A stretch of 64,000 nt of DNA, taken from assembly GCA_916610825.1 (NCBI GenBank), contig OU744446.1:29464445-29528444 (forward strand), in the 5' to 3' direction. Positions within the stretch are counted from its first letter, which is position 1. Each line of letters starts with the position of its first letter. Shown here one piece after another: positions 11,823 through 60,722 of the stretch. Below the pieces are notes generated by a model. That model saw only the letters and a list, made by a program, of their open reading frames with translations. It had not been told where the DNA came from and ran no database searches. The DNA comes from Haliclystus octoradiatus. Taxonomy: Eukaryota; Cnidaria; Staurozoa; Stauromedusae; Haliclystidae. Made by a program: the position numbers and the translations under genes.

Positions 11823-14016
11823 TTAAACTTTATTATTTGCCCTCCTTTTTTCTTCCTTTTTAGATTGTTGTTTGATCTTTTTGTTCAATTGCTTTAATAT
11901 CTTTTCTTTTTTCCTCTCTTGCTTAATTTTTTTCTTTGACGCTTTTTCTGCTCTTTTGGCTCTTGATTTGGCAGTCTTTTCATGTAGGTTTTCTTTCGTT
12001 TCCAACGGACGTTGCATTGAAGAATCCTCTATTTTAAAGAATAAAAATAAGTCCTCAAAACATAAAGATAGGGTTTTTTATATCATAAATACAATTGTTA
12101 TTCTTTAAACAAATTAATTATACGAACGCTACTTCAACAAAATTACAAATAACTAACTAATAACTACTAATAATGAGAAGAAAAAATGAAGAAAAAATCA
12201 GACATCCATATTTGCTCCTATATATAGGCAAATATGAATGTCTGATTTTTTCGTTTATATATTATCAAATATATGGCATCGAGCACTATTGAAACAGCAG
12301 AGACAACATAAGTACCTTGATATTACTAACTAATAACTATAATTAGCTATACCAATCAATAAAGGTTTTGTAAAATTTAAAGGTACCCATAATATTTAGA
12401 GCATTGCCCCTTTGAATTGCCATATCGATTTTGTGGAGCAGTTTGTTCAAAATATTTGGATCACCGCAATCCTTACTCAGAAAAGTACCCAACTCTCTAT
12501 AACATAGCTTTTCGCTTAATAACTAAAAGAACCACTTGTCTCCGTTCCTATTGATTGGAAATGGTATGTAACACGCAATTGATGAAATTTTTCTCGTTTT
12601 TTGAATTCCGTGTCACTGATGCGGCATCAGATGCTGCAGCAGATGCTTGGATTGTGATGACTTCGAAATAATTATTGAAATTAGAAACTTATAATTCTTA
12701 GTAGTTTTGGATTATCTACTTTCTGAATAATTTCTTCCAAAACGCTCGAATAAAAACGTTGGGAAATGACAATTCATCCGATTGCTTTTCGGCACTAAAT
12801 TTCTCGTTTTAATTGAGAAAAGGGATGCCCATCAATCGCTTCTCTATACTGTAAAATTCCTGCACAGTAATTATAAATGAAATAATGTTTGTAATATCAG
12901 ATGTGGATAACTGGTCGTCTTCAATAGGTAGTCATTTGATACAGATAGCAGACTAATCATATATTTTATCCCAAGAAATATACTATTTTAATTTATATAG
13001 ATATAACCTTTGGAGTTGGATGGTGAATCGCGTGTTGTATTCAATTTGGTGCCACTTTTACTCATTGTTGATAGTTTTTCACTTTGTTTTTGATCTTCAA
13101 ACAAATGAGTAAAAGATTGATTATGATGACCATGTCCAAGCTGCCAGTTAATTGATTTCAAAACAATCTCGACTTTGCTTAAAACTTCGACGCTTCTTTT
13201 ATCATGTTGACATCTTTGTTTATTCAAAGCAAAATTATTTTTCATCGTAAAAACACGTTTCTGATACTTGGCCCTCTCTCTATCACGCAAATATTGCCTG
13301 GCCTCCATGCTTAATATTTCGTACTCAAGGGGTTGCGGAAACACTTCTCTAACTCTTTCCTTTAATTTAGATTGATATTTGCTCTGCAGAGATTGTTCGT
13401 CAACTTTCACCCAGAACTTTTTCATTTCTTCGGATTCCTTTATGTGGTTCCTTTGTTTATATTCATTAATGTTTTTGATTGGATTACCAAAAACTGAATC
13501 TCCAAATATGTCCCTAATTTCAATGTTATAATTTAATTTTATCTTTTTTTGAGAAGTACCGATTTTGAATGCATCGAAGTATTTACTCTCAATATTATGA
13601 TTTTCTTCAAAATTATCATCATCTGATTCGTTTTCATTCAGCGTAGATTCGTTATCCTTAATGACGTAAGCATTCTTTGTTTTGTTCAATATATATCTCA
13701 AATGAGGTATTTTCTTAATTGTTGTTGCAACTGTTGTTATCTCCACTTCATCAGGAGCAGTTAACGTTTCATTATAATTTACACAAAAATTACCACAGAG
13801 GTTCTGTTTATTATCAAGTATAACTTCCACGTTTTCAACATCAGAACATTCATTGACGCATACAATATTATTTTGGTTCCGATCATTGTCACTACTTACG
13901 ATATTGCAGGGTACATTATTCTGTTGAGATTCTTTCTCATCGACAATTTCCATATCGTTTATGTCTGATACACATGAAAACGATAGCGGACAAATACATG
14001 CAAGTATATTAGCCAT
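11823..14016 (-). CDS. Gene M copy 1 (unrecognised two-exon gene)
   Basis: Exon 1 is 13008-14016 and exon 2 is 11823-12028. Exon 1 ends AAAG before GTTATA, and exon 2 follows an AG at 12029-12030. The join gives Lys-Glu-Asp-Ser-Ser-Met in frame and a 404-residue product. The ATG has a strong context (AAAATGG); the frame is open 28 codons further upstream but without an ATG. The N-terminal about 85 residues hold some nine cysteines. The middle is acidic and Asn-rich. Residues 198-275 are charged and helical (MKKFWVKVDEQ onward). A WQLGHGHH motif follows near 291, and the tail from about 341 is lysine-rich and NLS-like. I recognise no family. Copy-specific changes include KDNEST and a different residue pattern just before the junction. 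The 979-bp intron holds a Y repeat (about 12383-12550) and the hairpin. It is head-to-head with copy 2. Confidence 0.7.
12191..12252 (-). ncRNA. Intronic hairpin, gene M copy 1
   Basis: Long near-perfect hairpin (arm TCAGACATTCATATTTGC on the gene's strand with one G:U in RNA) and an AU-rich loop. It lies about 160 bases upstream of the splice acceptor. It could be a pre-miRNA-like structure or a tiny palindromic element. Confidence 0.45.
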
Positions 14017-14091
14017 TTTAGTAATAAAATCAGCTACTTCTAATTTAAACGAGAGACTCGCAATTAATAAATTGCAATTGAAGATCGATTG

Positions 14092-14099
14092 TGACGTCA
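14092..14099 (-). promoter_or_regulatory. TGACGTCA (CRE-type) site upstream of gene M copy 1
   Basis: Perfect CREB/ATF palindrome about 75 bases before the ATG, with CACGTG about 18 bases further upstream. Both are kept in all six copies. Binding is inferred. Confidence 0.4.
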
Positions 14100-14774: not shown

Positions 14775-14819
14775 GGTCACTGATGAGTTCCTTGGCAGGA
14801 ACGAAACACGTGTCAGACC
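14775..14819 (+). ncRNA. Type I hammerhead ribozyme, first unit (weakened)
   Basis: The core is CUGAUGA, stem II GUUCC/GGAAC with a 6-nt loop, GAAA, then a minimal stem III ACAC/GUGU without a loop and cleavage after C. Stem I is GGUC/GACC, but the innermost pair is A opposite A (the other copies have U-A), which should reduce activity. A short stem III suggests cleavage as a dimer. Confidence 0.85.
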
Positions 14820-15002: not shown

Positions 15003-15073
15003 AGCCTCATCAACTTCCTAATACTTTGCATTTTTCCGATCATTGATTGTTGGGTTTATCGAATAGTCATGTT

Positions 15074-16223: not shown

Positions 16224-16254
16224 CACGTGATCTTCATCAAGTTATGTGACGTCA
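16224..16254 (+). promoter_or_regulatory. CACGTG and TGACGTCA boxes upstream of gene M copy 2
   Basis: CACGTG at 16224-16229 and TGACGTCA at 16247-16254, about 75 bases before the ATG at 16330. The order and spacing are the same in the other copies. Function is inferred from sequence only. Confidence 0.4.
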
Positions 16255-16329
16255 CAATCGATCTTCAATTGCAATTTATTAATTGCGAGTCTCTCGTTTA
16301 AATTAGAAGTAGCTGATTTTATTACTAAA

Positions 16330-18342
16330 ATGGCTAATATACTTGCATGTATTTGTCCGCTATCGTTTTCATGTGTATCAGACATAAACGATATGGAAAT
16401 TGTCAATGAGAAAGAATCTCAACAGAATAATGTACCCTGCGATATCGTAAGTAGTGGCAATGATCGGGACCAAAATAATATTGTATGCGTCAATGAATGT
16501 TCTGGTGTTGAAAACGTGGAAGTTATACTTGATAATAAACAGAACCTTTGTGGTAATTTATGTGTAAATTATAATGAAACGTTAACTGCTCCTGATGAAG
16601 TGCAGATAACAACAGTTGCAACAACAATTAAGAAAATACCTCATTTGAGATATATATTGAACAAAACAAAGAATGCTTACGTCATTAAGGATAACGTATC
16701 TACGCTGAATAAAAACGAATCAGATGATGATAATTTTGAAGAAAATCATAATATTGAGAGTAAATACTTCGATGCATTCAAAATTAGTACTTCTCAAAAA
16801 AAGATAAAATTCAATTATAACATTGAAATTAGGGACATATTTGGAGATTCAGTTTTTGGTAATCCAATCAAAAACATTAATGAATATAAACAAAGGAACC
16901 ACATAAAGGAATCCGAAGAAATGAAAAAGTTCTGGGTGAAAGTTGACGAACAATCTCTGCAGAGCAAATATCAATCTGAATTAAAGGAAAGAGTTAGAGA
17001 AGTGTTTCCGCAACCCCTTGAGTACGAAATATTAAGCATGGAGGCCAGGCAATATTTGCGTGATAGAGAGAGGGCCAAGTATCAGAAACGTGTTTCTACG
17101 ATGAAAAATAATTTTGCTTTGAATAAACAAAGATGTCAACATGATGTAAGAAGCGTTGAAGTTTTAAGCAAAGTCGAGACTGTTTTGAAATCAATTAACT
17201 GGCAGCTTGGACATGGTCATCATAATCAATCTTTTACTCATTTGTTTGGAGATCAAAAACAAAGTGAAAAACTATCAACAATGAGTAAAAGTGGCACAAT
17301 ATTGAATAAAACACGCGATGCATCATCAAACTCCAAAGGTTAGCTATCTATATATATTAAAATAGTATATTTCTAAGGATAAAATATATGATTAGTCTGC
17401 TATCTGTATCAAATGACTACCTATTGAAGACGACCAGTTATCCACATCTGATATTACAAACATAATTTCATTTAAAATTACCGTGCACACATTTTACAGT
17501 ATAGAGAAGCGATGGACGGTCATAATTTTTTCTCAATTAATACAAGAAATTAGTGCAGAAAAACAAAAAACGATAAAAGTTTCATCAATTGCGTGTTACA
17601 TACTATTTCCAATCAATAGGAACAGAGACAAGTGGTTATTTTAGCTATTAAGCGAAAAGCTATGTTATAGAGAGTCGGGTACTCTTCTGAGTAAGGATTG
17701 CGGTGATCCAAATATTTTGAACAAACTGCTCCAAAAAATCAATATGGCAGTTCAAAGGGGTAATGCTCTAAATATTATGGGTACCTTTAAATTTTAGAAA
17801 ACCTTCTATTGATTGGTATAGCTATATAGTTATTAGTTAGTAATATCAAGGTACTTATGTTGTCTTTGCTGTTTCAATAGTGCTCGATGCCATAAATGCA
17901 GAGCTGTTTAATAATAAATAAACGAAAAAATCAGACATTCATATTTGCCTATATATAGGAGCAAATATGGATGTCTGATTTTTTTTTTTCATTATTAGTA
18001 GTTATTAGTTAGTTATTTGTAATTTTGTTGAAGTAGCGTTCGTATAATTAATTTGTTTGAAGAATAACAATTGTATTTATGATATAAAATACCCTATCTT
18101 TATGTTATGAGGACTTATTTTTATTCTTTAAAATAGAGGATTCTTCAATGCAACGTCCGTTGGAAACGAAAGAAAACCTACATGAAAAGACTGCCAAATC
18201 AAGAGCCAAAAGAACAGAAAAAGCGTCAAAGAAAAAAATTAAGCAAGAGAGGAAAAAAGAAAAGATATTAAAGCAATTGAACAAAAAGATCAAACAACAA
18301 TCTAAAAAGGAAGAAAAAGGGAGGGCAAATAATAAAGTTTAA
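16330..18342 (+). CDS. Gene M copy 2 (unrecognised two-exon gene)
   Basis: Exon 1 is 16330-17338, exon 2 is 18137-18342 and the intron is 798 bp. The donor is AAAG before GTTAGC; the acceptor TTTAAAATAG precedes AGGATTC. Exon 1 ends in codon phase 1 and exon 2 supplies two bases, so the reading frame continues into the lysine-rich tail (404 residues). Its intron is about 175 bp shorter than in the other copies, yet both exons are intact. It shares with copy 6 the variants SEL, RVST and DVRS. Exon 2 ends KGRANNKV where copies 1 and 3-5 have KRRANNKV. AATAAA at 18428-18433 fits a poly(A) signal, just before the (AAT)n tract. A Y repeat lies at about 17619-17786 in the intron. Function unknown; a basic nuclear or RNA-binding role is only a guess from composition. 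Confidence 0.72.
17924..17990 (+). ncRNA. Intronic hairpin, gene M copy 2
   Basis: Arms from GAAAAAATCAGACATTC to the complementary GGATGTCTGATTTTTT with one wobble pair. The CCTATATATAGG loop is itself palindromic. It lies 147 bases before the acceptor. Confidence 0.45.
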
Positions 18343-28607: not shown

Positions 28608-30797
28608 ATGGCTAATATACTTGCATGTATTTGTCCGCTATCGTTTTCATGTGAATCAGGCATAAACGATATGGAAATTGTCAATGAGAAAGAATCTCAA
28701 CAGAATAATGTACCCTGGAATATCGTAAGTAGTGACAATGATCGGAACCAAAATAATATTGTATGCGTCAATGAATGTTCTGATGTTGAAAACGTGGAAG
28801 TTATACTTGATAATAAACAGAACCTCTGTGGTAATTTATGTGTAAATTATAATGAAACGTTAACTGTTCCTGATGAAGTGGAGATAACAACAGTTGCAAC
28901 AACAATTAAGAAAATACCTCATTTGAGATATATATTGAACAAAACAAAGAATGCTTACGTCATGAAGGATAACGTATATCTACGCTGAATGAAAACGAAT
29001 CAGATGATGATAATTATGAAGAAAATCATAATATTGAGAGTAAATACTTCGATGCATTCAAAATCGGTACTTCTCAAAAAAAGATAAAATTCAATTATAA
29101 CATTGAAATTAGGGACATATTTGGAGATTCAGTTTTTGTTAATCCAATCAAAAACATTAATGAATATAAACAAAGGAACCACATAAAGGAATCCGAAGAA
29201 ATGAAAAAGTTCTGGGTGAAAGTTGACGAACAATCTCTACAGAGCAAATATCAATCTAAATTAAAGGAAAGAGTTAGAGAAGTGTTTCCGCAACCCCTTG
29301 AGTACGAAATATTAAGCACGGAGGCCAGGCAATATTTGCGTGATAGAGAGAGGGCCAAGTATCAGAAACATGTTTTTACGATGAAAAATAATTTTGCTTT
29401 GAATAAACAAAGATGTCAACATGATAAAAGAAGCGTTGAAGTTTTAAGCAAAGTCGAGATTGTTTTGAAATCAATTAACTGGCAGCTTGGACATGGTCAT
29501 CATAATCAATCTTTTACTCATTTGTTTGAAGATCAAAAACAAAATGAAAAACTATCAACAATGAGTAAAAGTGGCACCATATTGAATACAACACGCGATG
29601 CAACATCCAACTCCAAAGGTTAGCTATCTTTAAATTAAAATAGCATATTTCTGAGGATAAAATATATGATTAGTCTGCTATCTGTACCAAGTGACCACCT
29701 ATTGAAGACGACCAGTTACCCATCATCTGATATTACAAAACCTATTTCATTTATAATTACTGAGCAGATATTTTACAGTATAGAGAAACGATGGACGGGC
29801 ATCCCTTTTTCTCAATTCAATCAAGAATTTACTGCAGAAAAAAAATCGGTTGAATTTTCAATTCCCAACGTTTTCATTTGAGCGTTTTGGAAGAAATCAT
29901 TCAGAAAGTAGATCATCCAAAACTGCTAAGAATTCTAAGTTTCTAATTTGGATAATTATTTCGAAGTCATCATAATCCAAGCATCTGCTGCAGCATCTGA
30001 GGCCGCGTTAGTGACACGGAATTCAAAAAACGAGAAACGTTTCATCAATTGCGTGTTACATACCATTTCCAATCAATAGGAACAGAGACAAGTCTTTTAG
30101 CTATTAAGCGAAAAGCTATGTTATAGAGAGTTGGGTACTCTTCTGAGTAAGGAATGCGGTGATCCAAATATTTCGAACAAACTGCTCCAAAAAATCAATA
30201 TGGCAGTTGAGAGGGGTAATGCTCTAAATATTATGGGTACTTTAAATTTTAGAAAACCTTCTATTGATTGGTATGGCTATATAGTTATTAGTTAGTAATA
30301 TCAAGGTACTTATGTTGTCTTTGCTGTTTCAATAGTGCTCGATGCCATAAATGCAGAGCTGTTTAATAATAAATAAACGAAAAAATCAGACATTCATATT
30401 TGCCTATATATAGGAGCAAATATGGATGTCTGATTTTTTTTTTTCATTATTAGTAGTTATTAGTTAGTTATTTGTAATTTTGTTGAAGTAGCGTTCGTAT
30501 AATTAATTTGTTTGAAGAATAACAATTGTATTTATGATATAAAATACCCTATCTTTATGTTATGAGGACTTATTTTTATTCTTTAAAATAGAGGATTCTT
30601 CAATGCAACGTCCGTTGGAAACGAAAGAAAACCTACATGAAAAGACTGCCAAATCAAGAGCCAAAAGAACAGAAAAAGCGTCAAAGAAAAAAATTAAGCA
30701 AGAGAGGAAAAAAGAAAAGATATTAAAGCAATTGAACAAAAAGATCAAACAACAATCTAAAAAGGAAGAAAAAAGGAGGGCAAATAATAAAGTTTAA
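28608..30797 (+). pseudogene. Gene M copy 3, frameshifted
   Basis: Exon 1 is 28608-29618, exon 2 is 30592-30797 and the intron is 973 bp. A 2-bp insertion (extra AT near 28975-28979) breaks the frame after about 120 residues; the original frame resumes downstream and is open to the donor. Splice sites, exon 2, the intronic Y repeat (about 30078-30240), hairpin, CRE box at 28525-28532 and poly(A) signal are all present. Further changes include Gly-to-Val before the NPIKN motif and Met-to-Thr in the EILSMEAR motif. This is the only one of six copies with a disrupted frame. The copy borders the left inverted arm, not the LINE-D spacer. Confidence 0.75.
30379..30445 (+). ncRNA. Intronic hairpin, gene M copy 3
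   Basis: Same hairpin as in copy 2, base for base in both arms, although the host ORF is broken. Confidence 0.45.
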
Positions 30798-30912: not shown

Positions 30913-31429
<517 letters not shown>

Positions 31430-31655
31430 ATAGATCTTGCTTTAATCGACGTAGCTCAAGCGTATCAAAGTCTAAAGCTTCTAGTCTGTCCTTGTAGGAA
31501 TCGAATTTGATTCCAGATACCCAACACAGATAACGTGTGAATTTTTGTTGAATTCTTTCAATCCTATATTTATCTTTTACAAGTTGGGGACTCCATACAG
31601 GTGTCGATGACTCCAATACTGGCCTAATATATACTTTATACGCTCTTATACGCTA
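31430..31655 (-). mobile_element. LINE-B C-terminal fragment, inverted
   Basis: Encodes the ESSTPVWSPQLVKDKYRIER region of LINE-B in reverse. It is the truncated counterpart of 47.97-48.49 kb. Confidence 0.8.
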
Positions 31656-31689
31656 CAAGGTAGCTCATCGATTATAGTTAGTTGAGAAT

Positions 31690-34600
31690 AATAACAATCA
31701 CAAACGGAGGAGAAGGAGAAAAACAATAGAAAAAAACTTAAAATCGTTGAAAGTGCACTATGTAAACATCAGAGGATTAAAATCAAAACATGACAATCTA
31801 TCTGAAATAATACAAAGCATTGATGCAGATATAATCGGTATAGTAGAAACACATGCTAGCAATCCGGACAAGGTAGAAATAGAAGGATATCGCATATACA
31901 GAAATGATAGAAATGATGAAGGAGGAGGAGTGTTGATAGCTGTGAAGAAAAATATGAAAATGTCACAATGGAGGTAAACAAAACAGAGAGCAGCATGGAA
32001 AGCCTGTGGATTACAGTTGGTACCAAGACTAAATATCAAGTAGGAGTTGCATTATTTCCTTAAAGGTGATCAAGAAAAAAAGAAAACCCTCAAATCTCAG
32101 TACGAAGTGCTAAAAAAAGAAATCAACAAAGGTCAAGATTACGGGCAAAGAATTATTTTAATGGGAGATTTTAGTTGTAGAGTTGGTGAAATAATAACTG
32201 GAAACCACAGAGAGATAACCAAGGGTGGACGACTGATAAAGAAGTTGATGGTAGATTGTGAACTTGCGATGGTAAACAGCTGGAGTGAATGCAAAGGAGT
32301 TTGGACAAGAGTAGAAGGAGCAAATCGTTCAATATTGGACTACGTTTTTGTAGAAGAAGAGTATGCAAGAAATCTAAAATGATTATTGATAGATGAGGAA
32401 AAGTTATTTACCCCATATAGAGTGACTAGAGTCCTCAAAATAGACAACGAAGTAATGCTAAGATATCAGAGTCGTGATAATGGAATGTGACGGAGCAGTA
32501 TCACATGGTAAAGAAAGAGAACAGAACGGACTCCTCACCAAGAGGTTATTTAACAGCTTATTGCAAAGAAACAAATTGTCCACAGTATTTGATAGCCAGG
32601 AAGAACTACAAGTACAATATTCAAAATGGACAAAAAAAGTAATGTTGATCAAAGAAAAATGTAACACAAAATTAAAAATAAAGCAATGTACAACAATCTA
32701 CAACCTTAACAGAAATGCACGGATTACGATACAAACACCACATGGACCCACTTCTGAGATAGAGATTAAAAACATCGTTAAACAATGCACTGTGTATGGC
32801 CCTCAGCTATGTTGTGTCAGCACTGATCTGATAAATAGAGAGTTTCAGATTGCATGAACGACGACGTTAGAAGGGTGCGCAGTGCTTCTGCACATCTCTT
32901 TGGGGAATCACCTCTGTGCAAGAACCGTTCACGTGAACGGTTCATGAGCAATCTATCGTCGTCGTGAACGATAGCGAAGCTCAACTTTGAAATACGACAA
33001 ATGTAGCATAGAAAGTGTATTCTATACAATCTTAGTATTACTATATCAATCAGAAATGCAGTTAATTCTTTTCCATCAGAAGTTATTGATAAATACATTC
33101 GAAAAATATATACTTGGAATGAAATTTATGGTCTTTTGCGTGGTCAAATACCTTTGGCTACATATTAAACATGTTGAAAACAACACCATAAGGTTTAAAG
33201 TAAGCTAAGGTTTGATTATTTTGACATCGAATTATAGATTTTGTTCTTGTTGAAGCTTGAAGTTTAAAATACAGATTTAAATTATATTTCTACCGCTGTT
33301 TGTTGTATGTCATTTGAGTAAGATTTGGCCGAAATGATTTTGTTTCTTTAGTCTTTATTTACAATATGAGTTGATTATTTCATTTAAACATGATTTAAAA
33401 GAAATCTTCTTCCAATTATGTTGCATTAACGATTGTTTTAGACCTTTGCAATATGTAGTGTTGTTTTATCTTCAAAATCCATAACATACAAAATGCGTAT
33501 TCGCCAGATTGACATTATCAAAATGATTGTTTTCATGTTTTGCAAAGAAAGGAACTACCGTCGTTGGCCAAAATAATCTGAAATGTAAACTGCGTGAGTA
33601 CGACGATCAGAACAGGAAGTTGTAAATGACGTGATCCTACCGTCGTCGTTCAACGAGATCTGAAACTCCCTATAAACCAGCAACTACAATAGTAACACCA
33701 AATTTATCATTAAAATCATTGATTTATGTTGATGACATTGCAGCTGCAGGGAACAAATATACCATAGAAACAGTTGGAGAAAACCTGGGGATAATGGAAA
33801 AGAAAAAAAAGTTTACTTTTAGTATCGATAAAACAAAGCAATATGATAATCAAATCAGGAAGAACAAAGCAGAAGAAGTAGTAATTAAGTTGAAAAAAGG
33901 GAACATCAGTGAAACAAAAGAATATAAATACCTTGGAAATTGGATGACAAGTAAAGGAACTGCAGAAAGACAAATTGGACAAATGGAAAAGAATATTCAT
34001 GGAATTATTAAAGAACTGAAAAGAATAGGCAAAGAGGAACATCTGGGTAAATACAGCACTAGTGCACAGCTACTCATGTACGAAAAAACTGTAGTGCCAA
34101 CCATTATTTATAATTTAGAGGTATGGACTATCCTAAGAAAGGTAGACAAGGAAAAAATTGAAAAAATACAATCAGTGGCATTGAAAAGAATTTTGCAGTT
34201 ACCAAATAGCACACCTTACTGGGGCATCTTAAAAGAAACAGGTATTTGGCCGATAAATATGCACATAACCTATCAACGTATCATATTATTACATAGCATA
34301 ATGACATCGGATAGCGAAAGATTGGGAAAAAAGATAATATTATAGAACAGATGAAAGAAAATAGAGAAGACAGTTGGTACGGGGAAACGAAGAGAATGGC
34401 GAAAGAACTGAGTATAGACGAAATGGAAACATCCAGGGTGACGAAGAATGAATGGAAAGAGATAGTAAAGGAAAATATTCAAGAAGCAGTACAAAGAACA
34501 AGTATAGATAAGGAGAAAGTAATGAAAAAGTTAAGACACCAAAAGCAGCAGAAGTATCAAAGGCAAAAGTATTTAAATTCAGTAGGAATAAATGAGGCCA

Positions 34601-34980
34601 GTGAGCTAATAAGATTGAGACTAGAAATGTATGACGTTGGAAGCACTGTTGGGAAAGAGAGACTATGTTGTTGTGGTATAGAACTAGAGACTATAGAACA
34701 TTTAATAGAATGCCCTGACGTGAAAAGCTTAAGTAAAACTGGCCGGGAAGTAGACGCTGATCACCCGGCAATTGATGACATTGATAAAACGAAAACACAC
34801 TGTCTCCGCAAAGCAAACACGTTTGTAAAAATGTACATAGAAATGAGGAACAAAAACAATTACTGAAAAAGAACATTTTGAAAAAAGATTTGATAAAAGA
34901 ATTATAAAAAAAATAAAAAATGTAAAGATACATACAATAATAACAGATTAAGTAGTAAATAAAATTTAACAATATATACA
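31690..34980 (+). mobile_element. LINE-C, degenerate non-LTR retrotransposon (first copy)
   Basis: The endonuclease begins at 31747 (VHYVNIRGLKSKHDNL, IVETH, GGGVLIAV) and continues in another frame at 32047 with LMGDF and LDYVFVEEEYA. RT palm motif TVYGPQLCCVST at about 32790 is followed by a terminal-inverted-repeat insertion, then the catalytic YVDD at 33719. The C-terminal half continues with NLEVWTILRKVDKEKIEKIQ and, at 34351-34866, a C-C-H-C zinc-knuckle-like stretch CCCGIELETIEHLIEC. Frames are broken in several places, so it is inactive. The family is non-LTR with an APE-type endonuclease; the clade is unclear. The same lesions occur in the copy 16.8 kb away. Confidence 0.8.
32838..33670. 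mobile_element. Terminal-inverted-repeat element (MITE) inside LINE-C
   Basis: The ends are imperfect inverted repeats of about 27 bases: outer AGTTTCAGAT, then TGAACGACGACG. They are flanked by TA on both sides. It splits the RT domain between the QGTVYGP-type motif and YVDD. It has no transposase. A 22-bp perfect palindrome centred on CACGTG lies at 32922-32943, and a second hairpin built on CTATCG/CGATAG follows. Confidence 0.75.
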
Positions 34981-35042
34981 ACGGAAAAACAAATATGTAA
35001 TTTAGCCTTGCACTCATTATATTATGATGTGCTTGCCATAGC

Positions 35043-38000
35043 ATGGCAAAGAGGGCACGTGGTAATAATAATAATAAAAAAACTGATAACGGCACACTAT
35101 ATTCAACAATCACACCACAGCCGCATAAAACAACATATGTCCTGATTACAAAACGAGAGTATGTAAATTTGGCCTGGAAGGCAAAAAGTGCAAATTCAAC
35201 CATCCCAAACACTGTCGTCATTTTGCTATCAATGGAAAGTTTAAGGGCGGCTGCAACCTAGGCAATAAATGTCCTCTTTATCATTTTACCATATACAAAG
35301 CATGCTACCAGACGCAGGAATGCTATGATAACAATTGCAAATCAGGGAATCATTTAAAAGGAACTAAACGCACAAAACAATTGGACTTATTGCAGTTTTC
35401 GAATGACGAAGGGCAGGGAACAAAACAAAGTCGCTACTGCCAACCATCTGTAAAGTCTATTCATACTGTCAGTGCTGATGTTACCGCTTAGAACGTTAAT
35501 GTTTTTTTAGATTCAGGGCCAGTGATGGCCCATATCAATCAAGAAATCAGCAAGTCGATGCAGTCTTTCCTCCCAATGATTCAGAAGTTGATAACTCAAA
35601 ATTTGAATTCAATGCAAATGAATCAAACCAGAATAAATCATCAACATTATATTCCACTAACCAAATATCATCAGCAACCAGCAGTTTACAATCAAAGACC
35701 TGCCCAATATCAATTCCACCTAACTATGGTAATGTAAATCTTTCTCTTAAATGTAAGTACTTCAATGCTAGGTCATTGATGAACAAATTATCTTATTTCC
35801 ATGATATGTTGGAATCACTAGAGTATGACGTTATTGCTATATCAGAAACATGGTTATCTAATTCTACTCCAGATGCACTAATTTCACCGACTTCGTATTA
35901 TCAAATTGTTAGATTTGATAGATGTATATCTTCCAGAGGAGGGGGTGTGGCATTGCTCATTAAAAGCTCTCTATGTTTTGCTGTTGTTGACAAGCCACAT
36001 AATTATTCTGATATAGAAGCAGTTACTGTTGATATCAAAGTTTCTAAATCCTTTGATCGTTTTGTTTGCATTTATAATTCTCCATCTGAATCGTCGTGTT
36101 TATTAAAGACACAACAATTGGGGAATTTTTTAAGCCACTGCTGTACATCTTGTGATTACCCATGTTTTATTACCGGTGATTTTAATTATCCCCACATGAA
36201 CTGGTCGATACCAACCAGTTGTGATGATAAATGTCATGATGAGTTCTTACATTATGTAAATTCTAACAATTTAAAACAATGTGTTATGCAGCCCACTAGG
36301 CAACAGAGAACATTAGATTTAATCTTAGCTACAGACCCGATGAAAATTTCAAGTTTAGAAGTAACAAGTCCATTTACATCTGTAGAACCATATGAAGAAA
36401 TAACAGCTAATTGACTAATAAACGTAACTAATATAATTCGTAATAAAATACACACTAGTAAAATACAAAAACTTAATGAACTATATGAACCTTATATATT
36501 TACTCCTTTCGCCGACGCTTCCGTGTTCGAACTGAACTTTCTCATTTTCGCTACCACACCTTAATTCACACTGTTATAAATGAAGGTGCTATAAATTGCA
36601 GCCTCGTATGAATTACATTACACTACAACATCTTCTTGCGACCATGATTCCATAAGTTTTACTATTCATACTCCTGCAGTTCTATCAAATAAAGGATATC
36701 ATCATCAAAAATTTAAACCAAATTTTCGTAAAGCTAATTATCAATCAATCTGTGAGCACTTAGCAACAATTAACTGGAGATCTATGCTAAGAAATTGCTG
36801 TGATGACGTTGAAATTTTTGGAACAATATATGTTCCGTACTTGATTACTGTATTCAAAACTTTGTACCGTCCTCCCCTATTGGTCGTAAGAAAACAAACC
36901 ATTCGAAGAAATTGAGACGCCTGGCAGCTATTAAACGAAGGGCATATCAAAGAATGAAAAATGGTATCTCGTCAAGTGAATCTTACAAAGTAACTGCCTC
37001 CGACTATGAAAAAGCAGTAAAAGAAAGTAAAATACAATCTGAGAAAGACCTACTTGATGATCCTTCATTGCAAAAGTTTTATTCATATGTCAACTCAAAC
37101 CTCAAATCAAAACCATCTATTCCATCTTTGTTATCATCTAATGGATCTCATGTAACTGAGGATAATGACAAAGCAAATTTAATGAACGACTATTTTGCAA
37201 GTGTATTTACAAATGATGATGGTATTAATCCTCCTTTTGCAAGACGTGTTCGTGAAAACGAATCAATAAGCTTTGTTGAATTTTCGTATCTCAAAGTTGC
37301 CAAAGTATTAAAAAAACTTACTTCAAAGACATCACGGTCACGGTGACCGATGGATATTCTGCTTTGTTTCTAAAATCAATTGCTGATGAAATTTCTCACC
37401 CTTTTAGTTTACTTTTCGAGTTGTCGCTTTTTGACAGGAGAATTATCACAAATTTGGAAATCTGCTATTGTTTCACCTATAGATAAAAGAGGACCATCAA
37501 GTATGAAAGAAAACTATAGACCCATCTCATTAACATGTATTGTGTAGTGGTTTATATATATTGTAACTTCCGTTTGTATCAGTCTTTCTCTACATGTAAA
37601 TAATCACTGTGATATGTAATCGCTCTCTTTCTATGTCAACATTTGTACCACAAGAAATACTTCAACATCTGCGAAAATATAATTTGATATCTAAAGAACA
37701 ATTTGGCTTTCTAGCACATAGATCTACATGTACTCAACTTTTATCATTCATGAGTAAGTGGCTGAAGTCTATAAATAACAAATTACGCATTGACAATATA
37801 TACATCGACTTTCAGACAGCCTTTGATACCGTATCTCATCAAAAGCTTCTTCTCAAATTGAGGCATATGGGATTGAAAATGAGCTCCTTCACTGGATTTC
37901 CAAATTTCTAATAGGACGATCTCAATGTGTATTTGTCAGTTCGGCCATGTCAAGTTCCATACCTGTGCCAAGTGGAGTTCCGCAGGGCTCTGTACTTGGC

Positions 38001-38935
38001 CCTTTACTATTTATTATTTATATTAATGACAACGTCTCTTGCGTTGAGCCAGGCTGTGACGTTAAACTTTTTGCAGATGATGCAGATTTCTCTTATTCCA
38101 GAAATGATGATAATGCTACCCCTTTATCAACAACTTTAACAAGTTTGGTGACTTGATGTGATACTTGGCAAATGAAAATATCTTTTCCTAGAAGTCATGT
38201 TTTTTCTTTTGGCAACATGAACATTTCTAAGCAAGAATATTTTATGGCAGATCATAAACTACATCATTTATCTAAAGTCCGTGATCTTGGTATCTATCTA
38301 ACAAGTAATTTAAAATTTTCAGATCATTGTGCCCATTTGGCATCAAAAGCTTCATCGATGAGCTACCTTGTGAGGCGCATATTTATCTCCAGAGACCCAA
38401 CTATGCTGTTAAGAGCGTATAAAGTATATATTAGGCCAGTATTGGAGTCATCGACACCTGTATGGAGTCCCCAACTTGTAAAAGATAAATATAGGATTGA
38501 AAGAATTCAACAAAAATTCACACGTTATCTGTGTTGGGTATCTGGAATCAAATTCGATTCCTACAAGGACAGACTAGAAGCTTTAGACTTTGAGACGCTT
38601 GAGCTACGTCGATTAAAGCAAGATCTATGTATGGTATATAAAATCATTAAAGGACTAGTCGATCTAAACTTTGATGATATTTTTAGTCTAAAAAAGACAA
38701 ACTATGACCTTCGCGGACATTCTCTGCAATTAAAATGTGAAGAAGTCCCTAAAACCAGCCTCGTCCAGCATGCATTCGCCATACGAACGATTTCATGGTG
38801 GAACGATCTTCCTAATAATGTATAGTCATTTGTGGAAATATCTCAACTTTTAAATCAAAACTGAATAGATTAGACCTGAGTAAATATTGTACTTTTTACT
38901 TACACCTTTTCTTCAGTTTTATTTAAATTAATATA
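35043..38935 (+). mobile_element. LINE-B, CR1-like retrotransposon with ORF1 and ORF2, degenerate (first copy)
   Basis: ORF1 starts at ATG 35043 and, after a frameshift, encodes three Cys-rich CCCH-like zinc fingers (35162-35357) and a Gln-rich region to 35737. ORF2 has an endonuclease (35776-36414: ISETWLS, RGGGVALLI, ITGDFNYPH) and a linker at 36912. The RT shows EQFGFLAHRSTCTQL, SGVPQGSVLGPLLF and FADD (37609-38156), then the VRPVLESS-like C terminus (38172-38825). Several frameshifts and a roughly 100-bp disruption after NYRPISLTC at 37.55 kb kill it. The 3' end is AT-rich, near 38935. Confidence 0.85.
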
Positions 38936-39107
38936 TTAATTTAGCACTACTTCTCAAAAAATCATTAATAATAAATAAATAAATATTAATACAATAAAAA
39001 AATGAAAAAATATAATAAAAATTATCATATTATTCGTTATACAAATGATTAAAAATAGATTTAAACATTTGTATTTTCAAAGGAAATTTTTTTTCGGGAC
39101 GGCCCTG

Positions 39108-39300
39108 ACGGAGACAAGAGGTTCTTTTGGCTATGAAGCGAAAAGCTTTGTTAGAGGGAGTTGGTTACTCTAATGAGTAAGGATTGCGGTGATCCAAATA
39201 TTTTGAACAAACTCTCCAAAAAGTCAGCATGGTAGCTCAGAGGAGTAATGCTCTAAGTGTTAGTGGTAGTTTTGACTTTTCAAAACCTTATATTGACTTT
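39108..39300 (+). repeat. Y repeat next to X copy 3
   Basis: Contains AAGGATTGCGGTGATCC and TGGTAGCTCAGAGG. The latter resembles a tRNA A box, but no B box follows at the right distance, so SINE origin is unproven. Confidence 0.7.
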
Positions 39301-39330
39301 ATAAGTTATACCTGGGGGCGGGAACTGCGG

Positions 39331-39705
39331 TACTTTTGAACGGGGGATTGCGATTTCAAAATCCCGCTAGCACAACAAAATGGCAGGTTTTGCCGGAAAT
39401 CAAACTCCAAAATTGTAAAAATGCATTACTTCCTGACAATTTGCATGAAAATGCCATTTTGGCGCCTCACAGCAGGATCGTGGTAACTTACAGGGGGATA
39501 ATTTCCGGTTTCACAGCCGGAAACCAGGGATTTCCGCAAAATTCGAAAATTGAAATTGTGTACCTCAAAATTGCCTGCATATGCCAAAATGGTGCCTCTT
39601 GTATAGTGCTTACATGGAAGTACATCAAATGCTATCGATGAATGGTAGAGTATCTTCAAATATATTAACCATAAGCACAAATCCAAATGTATACTAAATA
39701 TCAAG
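39331..39705 (+). repeat. X repeat, copy 3
   Basis: Mirror partner of the copy at 47.18-47.58 kb; together they border the cassette holding gene M copies 4 and 5. It ends at the (ATT)n tract. Confidence 0.8.
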
Positions 39706-40312
<607 letters not shown>

Positions 40313-42629: not shown

Positions 42630-43326
42630 TTTAGTAATAAAATCAGCTACTTCTAATTTAAACGAGAGACTCGCAATTAATAAATTGCAATTGAAGATCG
42701 ATTGTGACGTCACATAACTTGATGAAGATCACGTGTAATTCCATCATCATCATCATCATCATGATCACGTGTTATTAAAAAATGACTGTTTTCCGCCATC
42801 GTGTTAATCGTCATTAGACGCCATTTCCCTCCATTTATTTCTATGTTGAGCTAGTTCGATAATATTTCGGAAATTATAATATCGGATGTTATATTCTGAT
42901 GTTTAAATCCACTTTTTCTTTTACGAGGGCGAAGGGCTTCTGCGAAAGATGGTCTAGCTGGTGTATTTTCATGCAGTCGACAAATATGGCCTACATCTTT
43001 AGTCTTCGCATTCTGATGATTGTTGACCATTTCGTTTACTTTGTTAATATATATAATTCATCGTTACAAATCTTTTTGGGCCAATAAAACGTAACGGAGT
43101 TGTCTTCTATGGAAAGAATCAATTTTTTCTTTGAGGTAGGTGTTAATGTCCAAAGAGAGCAATTGTATAGGAATGTAGATGTTTGATAACAATCAAAGTG
43201 TCGAAGTTTTAGCTGCAATGATACTAATTTTGAATTGTAAATCTTTTAGCGGGTTTTCATGTTGTTTTTAAGTAAAAGCTTTCTATTATCAATATCTTTG
43301 TCTTTATCTAGATAACTTCCTAATAC

Positions 43327-44450: not shown

Positions 44451-44553
44451 GTGATCTTCATCAAGTTATGTGACGTCACAATCGATCTTCAATTGCAATT
44501 TATTAATTGCGAGTCTCTCGTTTAAATTAGAAGTAGCTGATTTTATTACTAAA

Positions 44554-46736
44554 ATGGCTAATATACTTGCATGTATTTGTCCGCTATCGTTTTCATGTGA
44601 ATCAGGCATAAACGATATGGAAATTGTCAATGAGAAAGAATCTCAACAGAATAATGTACCCTGCGATATCGTAAGTAGTGACAATGATCGGAACCAAAAT
44701 AATATTGTATGCGTCAATGAATGTTCTGATGTTGAAAACGTGGAAGTTATACTTGATAATATACAGAACCTCTGTGGTAATTTATGTGTAAATTATAATG
44801 AAACGTTAACTGCTCCTGATGAAGTGGAGATAACAACAGTTGCAACAACAATTAAGAAAATACCTCATTTGAGATATATATTGAACAAAACAAAGAATGC
44901 TTACGTCATTAAGGATAACGTATCTACGCTGAATGAAAACGAATCAGATGATGATAATTTTGAAGAAAATCATAATATTGAGAGTAAATACTTCGATGCA
45001 TTCAAAATCGGTACTTCTCAAAAAAAGATAAAATTAAATTATAACATTGAAATTAGGGACATATTTGGAGATTCAGTTTTTGGTAATCCAATCAAAAACA
45101 TTAATGAATATAAACAAAGGAACCACATAAAGGAATCCGAAGAAATGAAAAAGTTCTGGGTGAAAGTTGACGAACAATCTCTGCAGAGCAAATATCAATC
45201 TAAATTAAAGGAAAGAGTTAGAGAAGTGTTTCCGCAACCCCTTGAGTACGAAATATTAAGCATGGAGGCCAGGCAATATTTGCGTGATAGAGAGAGGGCC
45301 AAGTATCAGAAACGTGTTTTTACGATGAAAAATAATTTTGCTTTGAATAAACAAAGATGTCAACATGATGTAAGAAGCGTTGAAATTTTAAGCAAAGTCG
45401 AGATTGTTTTGAAATCAATTAACTGGCAGCTTGGACATGGTCATCATAATCAATCTTTTACTCATTTGTTTGGAGATCAAAACCAAAATGAAAAACTATC
45501 AACAATGAGTAAAAGTGGCACCATATTGAATACAACACGCGATGCACCATCCAACTCCAAAGGTTAGCTATCTTTAAGTTAAAATAGCATATTTCTTAGG
45601 ATAAAATATATGATTAGTCTGCTATCTGTACCAAGTGACCACGTATTGAAGACGGCCAGTTACCCATCATCTGATATCACAAAACCTATTTCATTTATAA
45701 TTACTGAGCAGATATTTTACAGTATAGAGAAACGATGGACGGGCATCCCTTTTTCTCAATTCAATCAAGAATTTACTGCAGAAAAAAATTCGGTTGAATT
45801 TTCAATTCCCAACGTTTTCATTTGAGCGTTTTGGAAGAAATCATTCAGAAAGTAGATCATCCAAAACTGCTAAGAATTCTAAGTTTCTAATTTCAATAAT
45901 TATTTCGAAGTCATCATAATCCAAGCATCTGCTGCAGCATCTGAGGCCGCGTTAGTGACACGGAATTCAAAAAACGAGAAAAGTTTCATCAATTGCGTGT
46001 TACATACCATTTCCAATCAATAGGAACAGAGACAAGTGGTTATTTTAGCTATTAAGCGAAAAGCTATGTTATAGAGAGTTGGGTACTCTTCTGAGTAAGG
46101 ATTGCGGTGATCCAAATATTTTGAACAAACTGCTCCACAAAATCGATATGGCAGTTGAGAGGGGTAATGCTCTAAATATTATGGGTACCTTTAAATTTTA
46201 CAAAACCTTTATTGATTGGTATAGCTTATAGTTATTAGTTAGTAATATCAAGGTACTTATGTTGTCTTTGCTGTTTCAATAGTGCTCGATGCCATAAATG
46301 CAAAGCTGTTTAATAATAAATAAACGAAAAAATCAGACATTCATATTTGCCTATATATAGGAGCAAATATGGATGTCCGATTTTCTCTTCTTTTATTATT
46401 AGTTAGTTATTTGTAATTTTGTTTAAGTAATGTTTGCGTAAGTAGTTTATTTAAAGAATAACAATTGTATTTATGATATAAAAAACCCTATCTTTATGTT
46501 ATGAGGATTTATTTTCATTCCTTAATATAGAGGATTGTTTAATGCAACGTCCGTTGGAAACGAAAGAAAACCTACATGATAAGACTGCCAAATCAAGAGC
46601 CAAAAGAACAGAAAAAGCGTCAAAGAAAAAAATTAAGCAAGAGAGGAAAAAAGAAAAGATATTAAAGCAATTGAACAAAAAGATCAAACAACAATCTAAA
46701 AAGGAAGAAAAAAGGAGGGCAAATAATAAAGTTTAA
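44554..46736 (+). CDS. Gene M copy 5 (unrecognised two-exon gene)
   Basis: Exon 1 is 44554-45562, exon 2 is 46531-46736 and the intron is 968 bp, giving 404 residues. At the junction exon 2 reads Glu-Asp-Cys-Leu-Met where the others read Glu-Asp-Ser-Ser-Met; the frame still continues. It has DNIQN like copy 6, DVRS like copies 2 and 6, but SKL and RVFT like copies 1, 3 and 4, a mosaic that suggests gene conversion. CRE box at 44471-44478; intronic Y at about 46021-46192. The intron also holds a 71-codon open stretch (45610-45825) that is not conserved as an ORF in the other copies. Poly(A) signal before the (AAT)n tract near 46832. Confidence 0.72.
46326..46387 (+). ncRNA. Intronic hairpin, gene M copy 5
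   Basis: As in the others, but with an A:C mismatch (GTCCGA in the 3' arm) and a disrupted terminal T run. Confidence 0.4.
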
Positions 46737-51904: not shown

Positions 51905-54900
51905 ATGGCAAAGAGGGCACGTGGTAATAATAATAATAAAAAAACTGATAACGGCACACTATATTCAACAATCACATCACAGCTGCATAAAACAACATAT
52001 GTCCTGATTACAAAACGAGGGTATGTAAATTTGGCCTGGAAGGCAAAAAATGCAAATTCAACCATCCCAAACACTGTCGTCATTTTGCGATCAATGGAAA
52101 GTTTAAGGGCGGCTGCAACCTAGGCAATAAATGTCCTCTTTATCATTTTACCATATGCAAAGCATGCTACCAGACGCGAGAATGCTATGATAACAATTGC
52201 AAATCAGGGAATCATTTAAAAGGAACTAAACGCACAAAACAATTGGACTTATTGCAGTTTTCGAATGACGAAGGGCAGGGAACAAAACAAAGTCGCTACT
52301 GCCAACCATCTGTAAAGTCTATTCATACTGTCAGTGCTGATGTTACCGCTTAGAACGTTAATGCTTTTTTAGATTCAGGGCCAGTGATGGCCCATATCAA
52401 TCAAGAAATCAGCAAGTCGATGCAGTCTTTCCTCCCAATGATTCAGAAGTTGATAACTCAAAATTTGAATTCAATGCAAATGAATCAAACCAGAATAAAT
52501 CATCAACATTATATTCCACTAACCAAATATCATCAGCAACCAGCAGTTTACAATCAAAGACCTGCCCAATATCAATTCCACCTAACTATGGTAATGTAAA
52601 TCTTTCTCTTAAATGTTAGTACTTCAATGCTAGGTCATTGATGAACAAATTATCTTATTTCCATGATATGTTGGAATCACTAGAGTATGACGTTATTGCT
52701 ATATCAGAAACATGGTTATCTAATTCTACTCCAGATGCACTAATTTCACCGACTTCGTATCATCAAATTGTTAGATTTGATAGATGTATATCTTCCAGAG
52801 GAGGGGGTGTGGCATTGCTCATTAAAAGCTCTCTATGTTTTGCTGTTGTTGACAAGCCACATAATTATTCTGATATAGAAGCAGTTACTGTTGATATCAA
52901 AGTTTCTAAATCCTTTTATCGTTTTGTTTGCATTTATAATTCTCCATCTGAATCGTCGTGTTTATTAAAGACACAACAATTGGGGAATTTTTTAAGCCAC
53001 TGCTGTACATCTTGTGATTACCCATGTTTTATTACCGGTGATTTTAATTATCCCCACATGGACTGGTCGATACCAACCAGTTGTGGTGATAAATGTCATG
53101 ATGAGTTCTTACATTATGTAAATTCTAACAATTTAAAACAATGTGTTATGCAGCCCACTAGGCAACAGAGAACATTAGATTTAATCTTAGCTACAGACCC
53201 GATGAAAATTTCAAGTTTAGAAGTAACAAGTCCATTTACATCTGTAGAACCATATGAAGAAATAACAGCTAATTGACTAATAAACGTAACTAATATAATT
53301 CGTAATAAAATACACACTAGTAAAATACAAAAACTTAATGAACTATATGAACCTTATATATTTACTCCTTTCGCCGACGCTTCCGTGTTCGAACTGAACT
53401 TTCTCATTTTCGCTACCACACCTTAATTCACACTGTTATAAATGAAGGTGCAATAAATTGCAGCCTCGTATGAATGCTATAAATTGCAGCCTCGTATGAA
53501 TTACATAACACTAAAACATCTTCTTGCGACCATGATTCCATAGGTTTTACTATTCATACTCCTGCAGTTCTATCAAATAAAGGATATCATCATCAAAAAT
53601 TTAAACCAAATTTTCGTAAAGCTAATTATCAACCAATCTGTGAGCACTTAGCAACAATTAACTGGAGATCTATGCTAAGGAATTGCTGTGATGACGTTGA
53701 AATTTTTTGGAACAATATATGTTCCGTACTTGATTACTGTATTCAAAACTTTGTACCGTCCTCCCCTATTGGTCGTAAGAAAACAAACCATTCGAAGAAA
53801 TTGAGACGCCTGGCAGCTATTAAACGAAGGGCATATAAAAGAATGAAAAATGGTATCTCGTCAAGTGAATCTTACAAAGTAACTGCCTCCGACTATGAAA
53901 AAGCAGTAAAAGAAAGTAAAATACAAACTCAAATCAAAACCATCTATTCCATCTTTGTTATCATCTAATGGATCTCATGTAACTGAGGATAATGACAAAG
54001 CAAATTTATTGAACGACTATTTTGCAAGTGTATTTACAAATGATGATGGTATTAATCCTCCTTTTGCAAGACGTGTTCGTGAAAACGAATCAATAAGCTT
54101 TGTTGAATTTTCGTATCTCAAAGTTGCCAAAGTATTGAAAAAACTTCCTTCAAAGACATCACGGTCACGGTGACCGATGGATATTCTGCTTTGTTTCTAA
54201 AACCAATTGCTGATGAAATTTCTCACCCTTTTAGTTTACTTTTCGAGTTGTCGCTTTTTGACAGGAGAATTATCACAAATTTGGAAATCTGCTATTGTTT
54301 CACCTATAGATAAAAGAGGACCATCAAGTATGAAAGAAAACTATAGACCCATCTCATTAACATGTATTGTGTAGTGGTTTATATATATTATAACTTCCGT
54401 TTGTATCAGTCTTTCTCTACATGTAAATAATCACTGTGATATGTAATCGCTCTCTTTCTATGTCAACATTTGTACCACAAGAAATACTTCAACATCTGCG
54501 AAAATATAATTTGATATCTAAAGAACAATTTGGCTTTCTAGCACATAGATCTACATGTACTCAACTTTTATCATTCATGAGTAAGTGGCTGAAGTCTATA
54601 AATAACAAATTACGCATTGACAATATATACATCGACTTCCAGACACCCTTTGATACCGTATCTCATCAAAAGCTTCTAATTGAGGCATATGGGATTGAAA
54701 ATGAGCTCCTTCACTGGATTTCCAAATTTCTAATAGGACGATCTCAATGTGTATCTGTCAGTTCGGCCATGTCAAGTTCCATACCTGTGCCAAGTGGAGT
54801 TCCGCAGGGCTCTGTACTTGGCCCTTTACTATTTATTATTTATATTAATGACACCGTCTCTTGCGTTGAGCCAGGCTGTGACGTTAAACTTTTTGCAGAT

Positions 54901-55800
54901 GATGCAGAGTTCTCTTATTCCAGAAATGATGATAATGCTACCCCTTTATCAACAACTTTAACAAGTTTGGTGACTTGATGTGATACTTGGCAAATGAAAA
55001 TATCTTTTCCTAGAAGTCATGTTTTTTCTTTTGGCAACATGAACATTTCTAAGTAAGAATATTTTATGGCAGATCATAAACTACATCATTTATCTAAAGT
55101 CTGTGATCTTGGTATCTATCTAACAAGTAATTTAAAATTTTCAGATCATTGTGCCCATTTGGCATCAAAAGCTTCATCGATGAGCTACCTTGTGAGGCGC
55201 ACATTTATCTCCAGAGACCCAACTATGCTGTTAAGAGCGTATAAAGTATATATTAGGCCAGTATTGGAGTCATCGACACCTGTATGGAGTCCCCAACTTG
55301 TAAAAGATAAATATAGGATTGAAAGAATTCAACAAGAATTCACACGTTATCTGTGTTGGGTATCTGGAATCAAATTCGATTCCTACAAGGACAGACTAGA
55401 AGCTTTAGACTTTGAGACGCTTGAGCTACGTCGATTAAAGCAAGATCTATGTATGGTATATAAAATCATTAAAGGACTAGTCGATCTAAACTTTGATGAT
55501 ATTTTTAGTCTAAAAAAGACAAAATATGACCTTCGCAGACATTCTCTGCAATTAAAATGTGAAGAAGTCCCTAAAACCAGCCTCGTCCAGCATGCATTCG
55601 CCATACGAACGATTTCATGGTGGAGCGATCTTCCTAATAATGTAGTCATTTGTGGAAATATCTCAACTTTTAAATCAGAACTGAATAGATTAGACCTGAG
55701 TAAATATTGTACTTTTTACTTACACCTTTTCTTCAATTTTATTTAAATTAATATATTAATTTAGCACTACTTCTCAAAAAATCATTAATAATAAATAAAT
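51905..55800 (+). mobile_element. LINE-B, CR1-like, degenerate (second copy)
   Basis: Duplicate of 35.04-38.94 kb. ORF1 zinc-finger region at about 52024-52219; endonuclease at 52638-53276; RT at 54436-54978, longer open than in the first copy (ENELLHWISKFLIGRSQCVS continues into SGVPQGSVLGPLLF and FADD); C terminus 55066-55746. A deletion near 53925 removes the DLLDDPSLQKFYSYVNS region that the first copy keeps. Each copy thus has private lesions on top of shared ones. Confidence 0.85.
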
Positions 55801-56584: not shown

Positions 56585-58421
<1,837 letters not shown>

Positions 58422-58530
58422 TATACGTTACATTACATCTTTATTGTTATCTGATAGAAAAGTTCACAATTAAGGACTTTCAAAAATTATATAAAACCAA
58501 TTGTTTGCAGCCATGTCCATTATTAAATTA

Positions 58531-60722
58531 TTAAACTTTATTATTTGTTTTCTTTTTTTCTTCCTTTTTAGATTGTTGTTTGATCTTTTTGTTCAATTGC
58601 TTTAATATCTTTTCTTTTTTCCTCTCTTGCTTAATTTTTTTCTTTGACGCTTTTTCTGTTCTTTTGGCTCTTGATTTGGCAGTCTTTTCATGTAGGTTTT
58701 CTTTCTTTTCCAACGGACGTTGCATTGAAGAATCCTCTATATTAAGGAATGAAAATAAATCCTCATAACATAAAGATAGGGTTTTTTATATCATAAATAC
58801 AATTGTTATTCTTTAAACAAACTAATTATACAAACGCTACTTCAACAAAATTACAAATAACTAACTAATAACTACTAATAATGAAAAAAAAAATCAGACA
58901 TCCATATTTGCTCCTATATATAGGCAAATATGAATGTCTGATTTTTTCGTTTATATATTATCAAATATATGGCATCGAGCACTATTGAAACAGCAAAGAC
59001 AACATAAGTTACTTGATATTACTAACTAATAACTATATAGCTATACCAATCAATAGAAGGTTTTCTAAAATTTAAAAGTACCCATAATACTTGGAGCATT
59101 ACCCCTCTCAAATGCCATATCGATTTTTTGGAGCAGTTTGTTCAAAATATTTGGATCACCGCAATCCTTACTCAAAAGAGTACCAACTCTCTATAACATA
59201 GCTTTTCGCTTAATAGCTAAAATAACCACTTGTCTCTGTTCCTATTGATTGGAAATGGTATGTAACACGCAATTGATGAAACTTTTCTCGTTTTTTGAAT
59301 TCCGTGTCACTAACGCGGCCTCAGATGCTGCAGCAGATGCTTGGATTACGATGACTTCGAAATAATTATCCAAATTAGAAACTTAGAATTCTTAGCAGTT
59401 TTGGATGATCTACTTTCTGAATGATTTCTTCCAAAACGCTCAAATGAAAACGTTGGGAATAGAAAATTCAACCGATTTTTTTTCTGCGGTAAATTCTTGA
59501 TTGAATTGAGAAAAAGGGATGCCCGTCCATCGTTTCTCTATACTGTAAAATATCTGCTCAGTAATTATAAATGAAATAGGTTGTGTAACATCAGATCATG
59601 ATCAGATGATGGGTAACTGGTCGTCTTCAATAGGTGGTCACTTGGTACAGATAGCAGACTAATCATATATTTTATCCTCAGAAATATGCTATTTTAATTT
59701 AAAGATAGCTAACCTTTGGAGTTGGATGGTGCATCGCGTGTTGTATTCAATATGGTGCCACTTTTACTCATTGTTGATAGTTTTTCATTTTGTTTTTGAT
59801 CTTCAAACAAATGAGTAAAAGATTGATTATGATGACCATGTCCAAGCTGCCAGTTAATTGACTTCAAAACAATCTCGACTTTGCTTAAAACTTCAACGCT
59901 TCTTACATCATGTTGACATCTTTGTTTATTCAAAGCAAAATTATTTTTCATCGTAGAAACACGTTTCTGATACTTGGCCCTCTCTCTATCACGCAAATAT
60001 TGCCTGGCCTCCATGCTTAATATTTCGTACTCAAGGGGTTGCGGAAACACTTCTCTAACTCTTTCCTTTAATTCAGATTGATATTTGCTCTGCAGAGATT
60101 GTTCGTCAACTTTCACCCAGAACTTTTTCATTTCTTCGGATTCCTTTATGTGGTTCCTTTGTTTATATTCATTAATGTTTTTGATTGGATTACCAAAAAC
60201 TGAATCTCCAAATATGTCCCTAATTTCAATGTTATAATTGAATTTTATCTTTTTTTGAGATGTACCGATTTTGAATGCATCGAAGTATTTACTCTCAATA
60301 TTATGATTTTCTTCATAATTATCATCATCTGATTCGTTTTCATTCAGCGTAGATACGTTATCCTTAATGACGTAAGCATTCTTTGTTTTGTTCAATATAT
60401 ATCTCAAATGAGGTATTTTCTTAATTTTTGTTGCAACTGTTGTTATCTCCACTTCATCAGGAGCAGTTAACGTTTCATTATAATTTACACATAAATTACC
60501 ACAGAGGTTCTGTATATTATCAAGTATAACTTCCACGTTTTCAACATCAGAACATTCATTGACGCATACAATATTATTTTGGTTCCGATCATTGCCACTA
60601 CTTACGATATCGCAGGGTACATTATTCTGTTGAGATTCTTTCTCATTGACAATTTCCATATCGTTTATGCCTGATACACATGAAAACGATAGCGGACAAA
60701 TACATGCAAGTATATTAGCCAT
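58531..60722 (-). CDS. Gene M copy 6 (unrecognised two-exon gene)
   Basis: Exon 1 is 59714-60722, exon 2 is 58531-58736 and the intron is 977 bp; 404 residues. Private changes are TKIKK for TTIKK, NYEEN for NFEEN and, at the very C terminus, KKKTNNKV for KRRANNKV. It shares DNIQN with copy 5 and SEL, RVST, DVRS and KFNY with copy 2. CRE box at 60798-60805, intronic Y at about 59085-59245. Upstream it joins the right inverted arm, as copy 3 joins the left one. Confidence 0.7.
58884..58948 (-). ncRNA. Intronic hairpin, gene M copy 6
   Basis: Same arms as in copies 1 to 3, with a nine-A run on the plus strand at the left edge. Confidence 0.45.

Follow-up and report, generated by a model that had tools for sequence, protein, structure and literature searches.

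The window analysed here is a 64-kb stretch of the Haliclystus octoradiatus genome (C1:29464445-29528444), and the genome searched comprises 261.9 Mb on 33 contigs. Six copies of a two-exon gene, hereafter gene M (M1 to M6), lie in this window, all of them where the original prediction had placed them. The exon-2 ends given below were calculated from the 206-nt length of this exon, in which no indel was seen.

11823-14016, minus strand: M1, exon 1 14016-13008, intron 12029-13007, exon 2 12028-11823, 404 residues
14083..14098, minus strand: promoter-like box GACGTCACAATCGATC upstream of M1
16248..16263, plus strand: promoter-like box upstream of M2
16330-18342, plus strand: M2, exon 1 16330-17338, intron of 798 nt, exon 2 18137-18342, 404 residues
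28526..28541, plus strand: promoter-like box upstream of M3
28608-30797, plus strand: M3, exon 1 28608-29618, exon 2 30592-30797, broken copy
31420..40066, no strand assigned: retroelement-bearing spacer between M3 and M4, with an endonuclease-domain ORF at 35779-36414
40423-42629, minus strand: M4, exon 1 42629-41615, exon 2 40628-40423, 406 residues, six extra in-frame bases
42696..42711, minus strand: promoter-like box upstream of M4
44472..44487, plus strand: promoter-like box upstream of M5
44554-46736, plus strand: M5, exon 1 44554-45562, exon 2 46531-46736, 404 residues
48252-56920: second copy of the spacer, about 97-98% identical to 31420..40066, with an RVT_1 ORF at 54460-54978
56585..58421, no strand assigned: (TAT)n array on the 3' side of M6
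58531-60722, minus strand: M6, exon 1 60722-59714, intron 58737-59713, exon 2 58531-58736, 404 residues
60789..60804, minus strand: promoter-like box upstream of M6

Exon 1 of the open copies measures 1009 or 1015 nt and exon 2 measures 206 nt including the stop codon, so that the expected product of 404 to 406 residues is indeed encoded by five of the six copies. In the sixth, M3, exon 1 contains a 2-nt insertion and the reading frame reaches its first stop after 126 residues. The start context TAAAATGG, an AATAAA signal downstream of the stop and the upstream box are each found in all six, as had been claimed. The downstream AATAAA is absent from all five copies of the second locus described below, whereas an AATAAA overlapping the end of the frame is common to the 11 copies of both loci. 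The prediction that splice sites are kept holds for the GT and AG dinucleotides (6/6), but the donor of M1 has drifted from GTTAGC to GTTATA. Counted on aligned bases, any two window copies are 97.0-98.8% identical in exon 1 and, in the intron, 90.3-97.1%; this resemblance among the six copies is far beyond chance.

The copies follow each other in the order minus, plus, plus, minus, plus, minus. Strict alternation, as first described, therefore fails at M2 and M3, which share the same direction. The array nevertheless contains larger repeated arrangements: a plus-strand M, a retroelement spacer and a minus-strand M occur in this layout twice (about 28.0-43.4 kb and about 44.0-61.3 kb), and M4/M5 reproduce the head-to-head arrangement of M1/M2. 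LINE remnants are marked by the endonuclease and RVT_1 ORFs, and a Pao-type element by two ORFs at 21.8-23.6 kb. Arrays similar to the (TAT)n array beside M6 are present 3' of M1, M2, M3 and M5; at M4 the array lies about 190 nt past the 3' end. These (AAT/TAT)n arrays are very long, at 56585-58421 and in five further places, with a maximum of about 612 units. Rfam and tRNA scans of the 64-kb window returned no matches.

A search of the genome with the exon-1 protein gave 13 matches in two places, namely, the window and C6:21.6206-21.6445 Mb; the search outside the array that had been called for thus yielded close copies at one other locus. The C6 locus harbours five copies in direct order (N copies), four of which are open, while N3 is broken. 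The exon-1 proteins of the two loci share 75% to 77% identity. GT-AG junctions are present in all 11 copies, and since the intron is retained in every one of them, a processed retrogene family was rejected. The introns measure 798-986 nt in the M copies versus 279-281 nt in the C6 copies, and their bodies differ. The additional part of the window intron (M1 to M6, for example 58737-59713), which has no counterpart on C6, contains short open stretches that may represent decayed coding sequence. Within the C6 array, a near-palindrome of about 290-305 nt occurs four times (C6:21624741-21643117).

The surroundings of the copies bear on the alternative offered in the original prediction, a cargo gene of a large mobile element; such an element would have brought M, as cargo or as an accessory ORF, to more than one chromosome. 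The copies are inverted, have LINE and Pao remnants around them and are not confined to a single contig, which would suit such an origin. However, next to the gene, homology between the window and C6 is limited to about 115-130 nt upstream (88 of 110 aligned positions are identical between M6 and N2), the gene itself and a short 3' flank, and the remaining matches between the two stretches are dispersed repeats at a distance from the C6 copies. No larger unit shared around the copies was thus found when C1 and C6 were compared. Furthermore, the intron is retained, the arrays on C6 and C4 (see below) are head-to-tail, and the close family is found at two places only. We consider a mobile cargo very improbable.

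Comparison of the two loci provides the evidence of selection on the protein. In all 20 pairs of open window and C6 copies, dN/dS is 0.40-0.50 (dN 0.131-0.144, dS 0.268-0.335), and Fisher tests on three of these pairs gave p values of 2.3e-6 to 6.8e-5. Within C6, the ratio is 0.27-0.47 in five of six pairs, the exception being N4-N5 with 2.22. When neutral evolution along a branch of 0.15 per site was simulated with point mutation alone, the frame stayed open in a fraction of 0.0005 of 2000 simulations, versus nine open frames observed among the 11 copies of the two loci.

Inside the window the picture differs. The ten pairs formed by the five open copies show dN/dS values of 0.62-4.40, and variable codons comprise 42 nonsynonymous and 9 synonymous changes on about 985 and 227 sites, respectively. 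These counts match an absence of constraint, the power of the test being small because divergence is only about 2%. Set against the fixed differences (78 to 33 codons), these variable codons show no significant contrast (p 0.12). A dN/dS near 1 had been named beforehand as an outcome that would speak against the prediction; this is what is found within the window array, where constraint is unproven, but not between loci. Exon 1 is more similar than the intron in all 15 window pairs, which proves little since synonymous divergence in the exon is low too, and since sites common to changing subsets of copies fall in blocks, a pattern that suggests gene conversion. For the same reasons, low exon divergence was not accepted as proving selection on the window copies.

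The window array might then be a decaying side branch, the working copies being located elsewhere (C6, C4) and the recency of the duplications being the main reason for its open frames. The within-array dN/dS of about 1, the broken M3 and the drifted donor of M1 are all in line with this. Neutral branches of 0.01-0.02 would moreover produce 0.65-1.33 expected stops and leave 53-26% of frames open. On the other hand, a single indel, the in-frame one of M4, is found in exon 1 of the five open copies, versus 14 in their intron, and the upstream box persists in every window copy. We regard such decay as rather unlikely.

The upstream box was followed through the genome in several forms. The sequence TGACGTCACAATC lies upstream of all 11 window and C6 copies, and CACGTGATC upstream of 10 of them. 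The distance from GACGTCACAATC to the ATG is 82 nt for M and 90 nt for the C6 copies; it is 80-81 nt in 16 of the 18 loci read, and 93 nt at the locus on C5. The 16-nt form GACGTCACAATCNATC occurs 85 times genome-wide, compared with a single occurrence of the reversed control, and 82 of these 85 sites are directly upstream of a family match (6 in the window, 75 on C4 and 1 on C5). No family match lies beside the other three (C1:22980271, C7:18110911 and C8:17879298), and the exact 16-mer is absent at some family loci, such as C4:6345965, C4:20053679 and C7:13173530. Since the copies of one array cannot be counted independently, the box is best described as belonging to each array though not to each locus. 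The form GACGTCACAATCGGT has seven occurrences, five before C6 copies and two at gene-like ORFs on C5. These ORFs lie downstream of the box at C5:10872901-10874980, and the longer box form is seen again 3.2 kb away. A wider 13-nt form gave 160 matches versus 13 for its control, and was rejected as a mark of the family, as it is also present in arrays outside the family and, probably incidentally, in a satellite-like repeat. At least 38 of the matches listed for this form fall in C4:7046248-7156455, with a usual spacing of about 2.6 kb. In this tandem array (C4 7.05-7.16 Mb), the single unit that was read has an acidic ORF with D/E-rich repeats.

Shorter loci, found mainly on C4, are probably related to M, as judged from sequence and profile comparisons. 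They number at least 78 (76 on C4, one on C5 and one on C7), three short fragments being left out, and all these counts are lower bounds. Those on C4 are located at 5.90, 6.35, 20.05-20.13, 20.69 and 21.93-22.00 Mb. Exon 1 is spanned by 56 of the 78 loci and is free of stops in 49 of these 56, so that 29 of 78 lack a complete exon 1 free of stops. In searches across the family, the best E-values were 4.4e-5 with a C4 query against C6 and 9.3e-4 in the reverse direction, while direct comparison of window copies with C4 proteins gave 0.036, 0.051 and 0.014, none being better than 0.014. In hhalign, C4 residues 14-212 aligned with M/N residues 223-393 across both exons, with a probability of 94.4 and an E-value of 8.4e-8 that refers to a single comparison of shallow profiles (Neff 1.2-1.6); the lysine-rich composition may have helped this match. 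Across eight sequences, 24 of 131 columns are invariant, and the core FPxPLExxILSxExRxY is probably homologous among the M, C6 and C4 proteins. An intron in phase 1 is common to the three groups.

Five of six joined C4 genes code for 215-220 residues in two exons separated by an intron of 83-94 nt, with a lysine-rich end, and the sixth (20.69 Mb) meets a stop at residue 145, early in exon 2. Among the five, dN/dS is 0.20-0.51 in ten pairs, with p below 0.05 in nine and 0.16 in the tenth. The dN/dS check advised at the outset thus supports selection at the protein level both between loci and among the C4 genes, and the claim of an amplified gene is borne out by the C6 locus together with the likely relatives on C4. 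The C4 relatives mostly sit in tandem, head-to-tail arrays with units of about 2.0-2.8 kb, and the unit read contains one recognisable gene; the C6 array is head-to-tail too.

In the C4 array at 20.05-20.13 Mb, open and frameshifted units are often found in alternation, the shift lying close to where exon 1 ends. This alternation, together with the many copies, the inverted duplications and the window dN/dS near 1, would be expected of a selfish or conflict-driven family (a drive-suppressor or ampliconic arms race), in which dosage wins transmission and copies consequently multiply. The constraint observed between loci argues against it, and we consider such a conflict improbable. As far as published summaries describe them, the ampliconic palindrome families of mammalian sex chromosomes resemble M in that the copies are nearly identical, lie in inverted duplications and share sites in blocks, a sign suggestive of gene conversion. 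They differ from it in that the likely relatives of M are arranged in head-to-tail arrays.

With regard to the protein, no known family was recognised, in agreement with the original prediction. No Pfam family exceeded the curated cut-off for exon 1 of the M, C6 and C4 genes, or the cut-off for most of M6 exon 2, the best sub-threshold E-value being 0.048, and no histone match was obtained. PHROGs returned a single, unconvincing match (E 0.19), and no stretch of viral contigs matched any of six peptide patterns. A sequence search of the PDB retrieved no chain for the M exon-1 protein and no convincing one otherwise. EBP2, retrieved with profile A2 (E 0.29), was taken as a chance match, its matched part lying outside the C4-like core, and so were three chains for a C4 protein (E 0.84-7.6) and one for the core profile A3 (E 0.96). 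The structure model has a mean pLDDT of 29.1 and is unusable, helices being merely hinted at in residues 182-294. Among the papers retrieved by literature searches on staurozoan or Haliclystus tandem and lineage-specific families, none deals with gene M as judged from its title or the opening of its abstract. As for composition, the M6 tail has 23 lysines in 68 residues and a pI of 10.4, residues 1-336 have a pI of 6.0 and the whole protein one of 9.0, while the five joined C4 proteins all have a pI of 10.3-10.4.

Because of the dN/dS between loci, the shared junctions and box, and the probable relatives, M is most likely a selected host gene and not cargo; that it is a genuine, amplified protein-coding gene of this kind appears to us likely. 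It would represent a selected, intron-bearing family without Pfam match, amplified at two loci in one animal genome, and at about 90 loci if the homology to the C4 genes is true. Amplification would have produced the inverted, retroelement-riddled array of six, the five direct copies on C6 and, probably, the approximately 78 shorter relatives, with unequal exchange and gene conversion reshaping the arrays. The box contains TGACGTCA, which we take to be a CRE, and a CREB/ATF-type factor bound there could drive the copies together, copy number serving dosage. The box can moreover serve to trace genes under common regulation and the stage at which they are used. The product would be largely disordered around the helical core FPxPLExxILSxExRxY, and the lysine-rich tail encoded by the second exon would suit entry into the nucleus or the binding of nucleic acids. 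Composition and box together suggest that M is perhaps a dosage-amplified, lysine-tailed protein of nuclear type under CRE-type control, the nuclear role being the least certain step and, in our opinion, no better than a tentative proposal.

Known systems offer partial parallels. Sperm nuclear basic proteins and other lysine-rich chromatin proteins, as summarised in the literature, share with M a lysine-rich tail, a likeness of composition only, and differ in that M6 residues 1-336 have an acidic pI and that M lacks a Pfam family above cut-off. Tandem histone clusters, like the C4 arrays, repeat a short unit in which a gene for a basic protein is preceded by a conserved box; in contrast, the M family has one intron per gene, no histone match and a single recognisable gene in the unit read. 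If the products were nuclear packaging proteins, this would amount to a novel solution within an animal lineage that branched off early. We can further imagine, as a doubtful extension, a staurozoan set of lysine-tailed nuclear proteins, made in bulk under one CRE-type box, amplified several times and accompanied by a separately amplified acidic partner gene (C4 7.05-7.16 Mb), serving lineage-specific packaging of chromatin or stored RNA.

Two other features were noted in the window, outside the array. A type I phosphodiesterase/nucleotide pyrophosphatase of 530 residues is encoded in one open frame at 4266-5858, and a 153-nt tandem repeat is present in 2.3 copies at 8543-8898.
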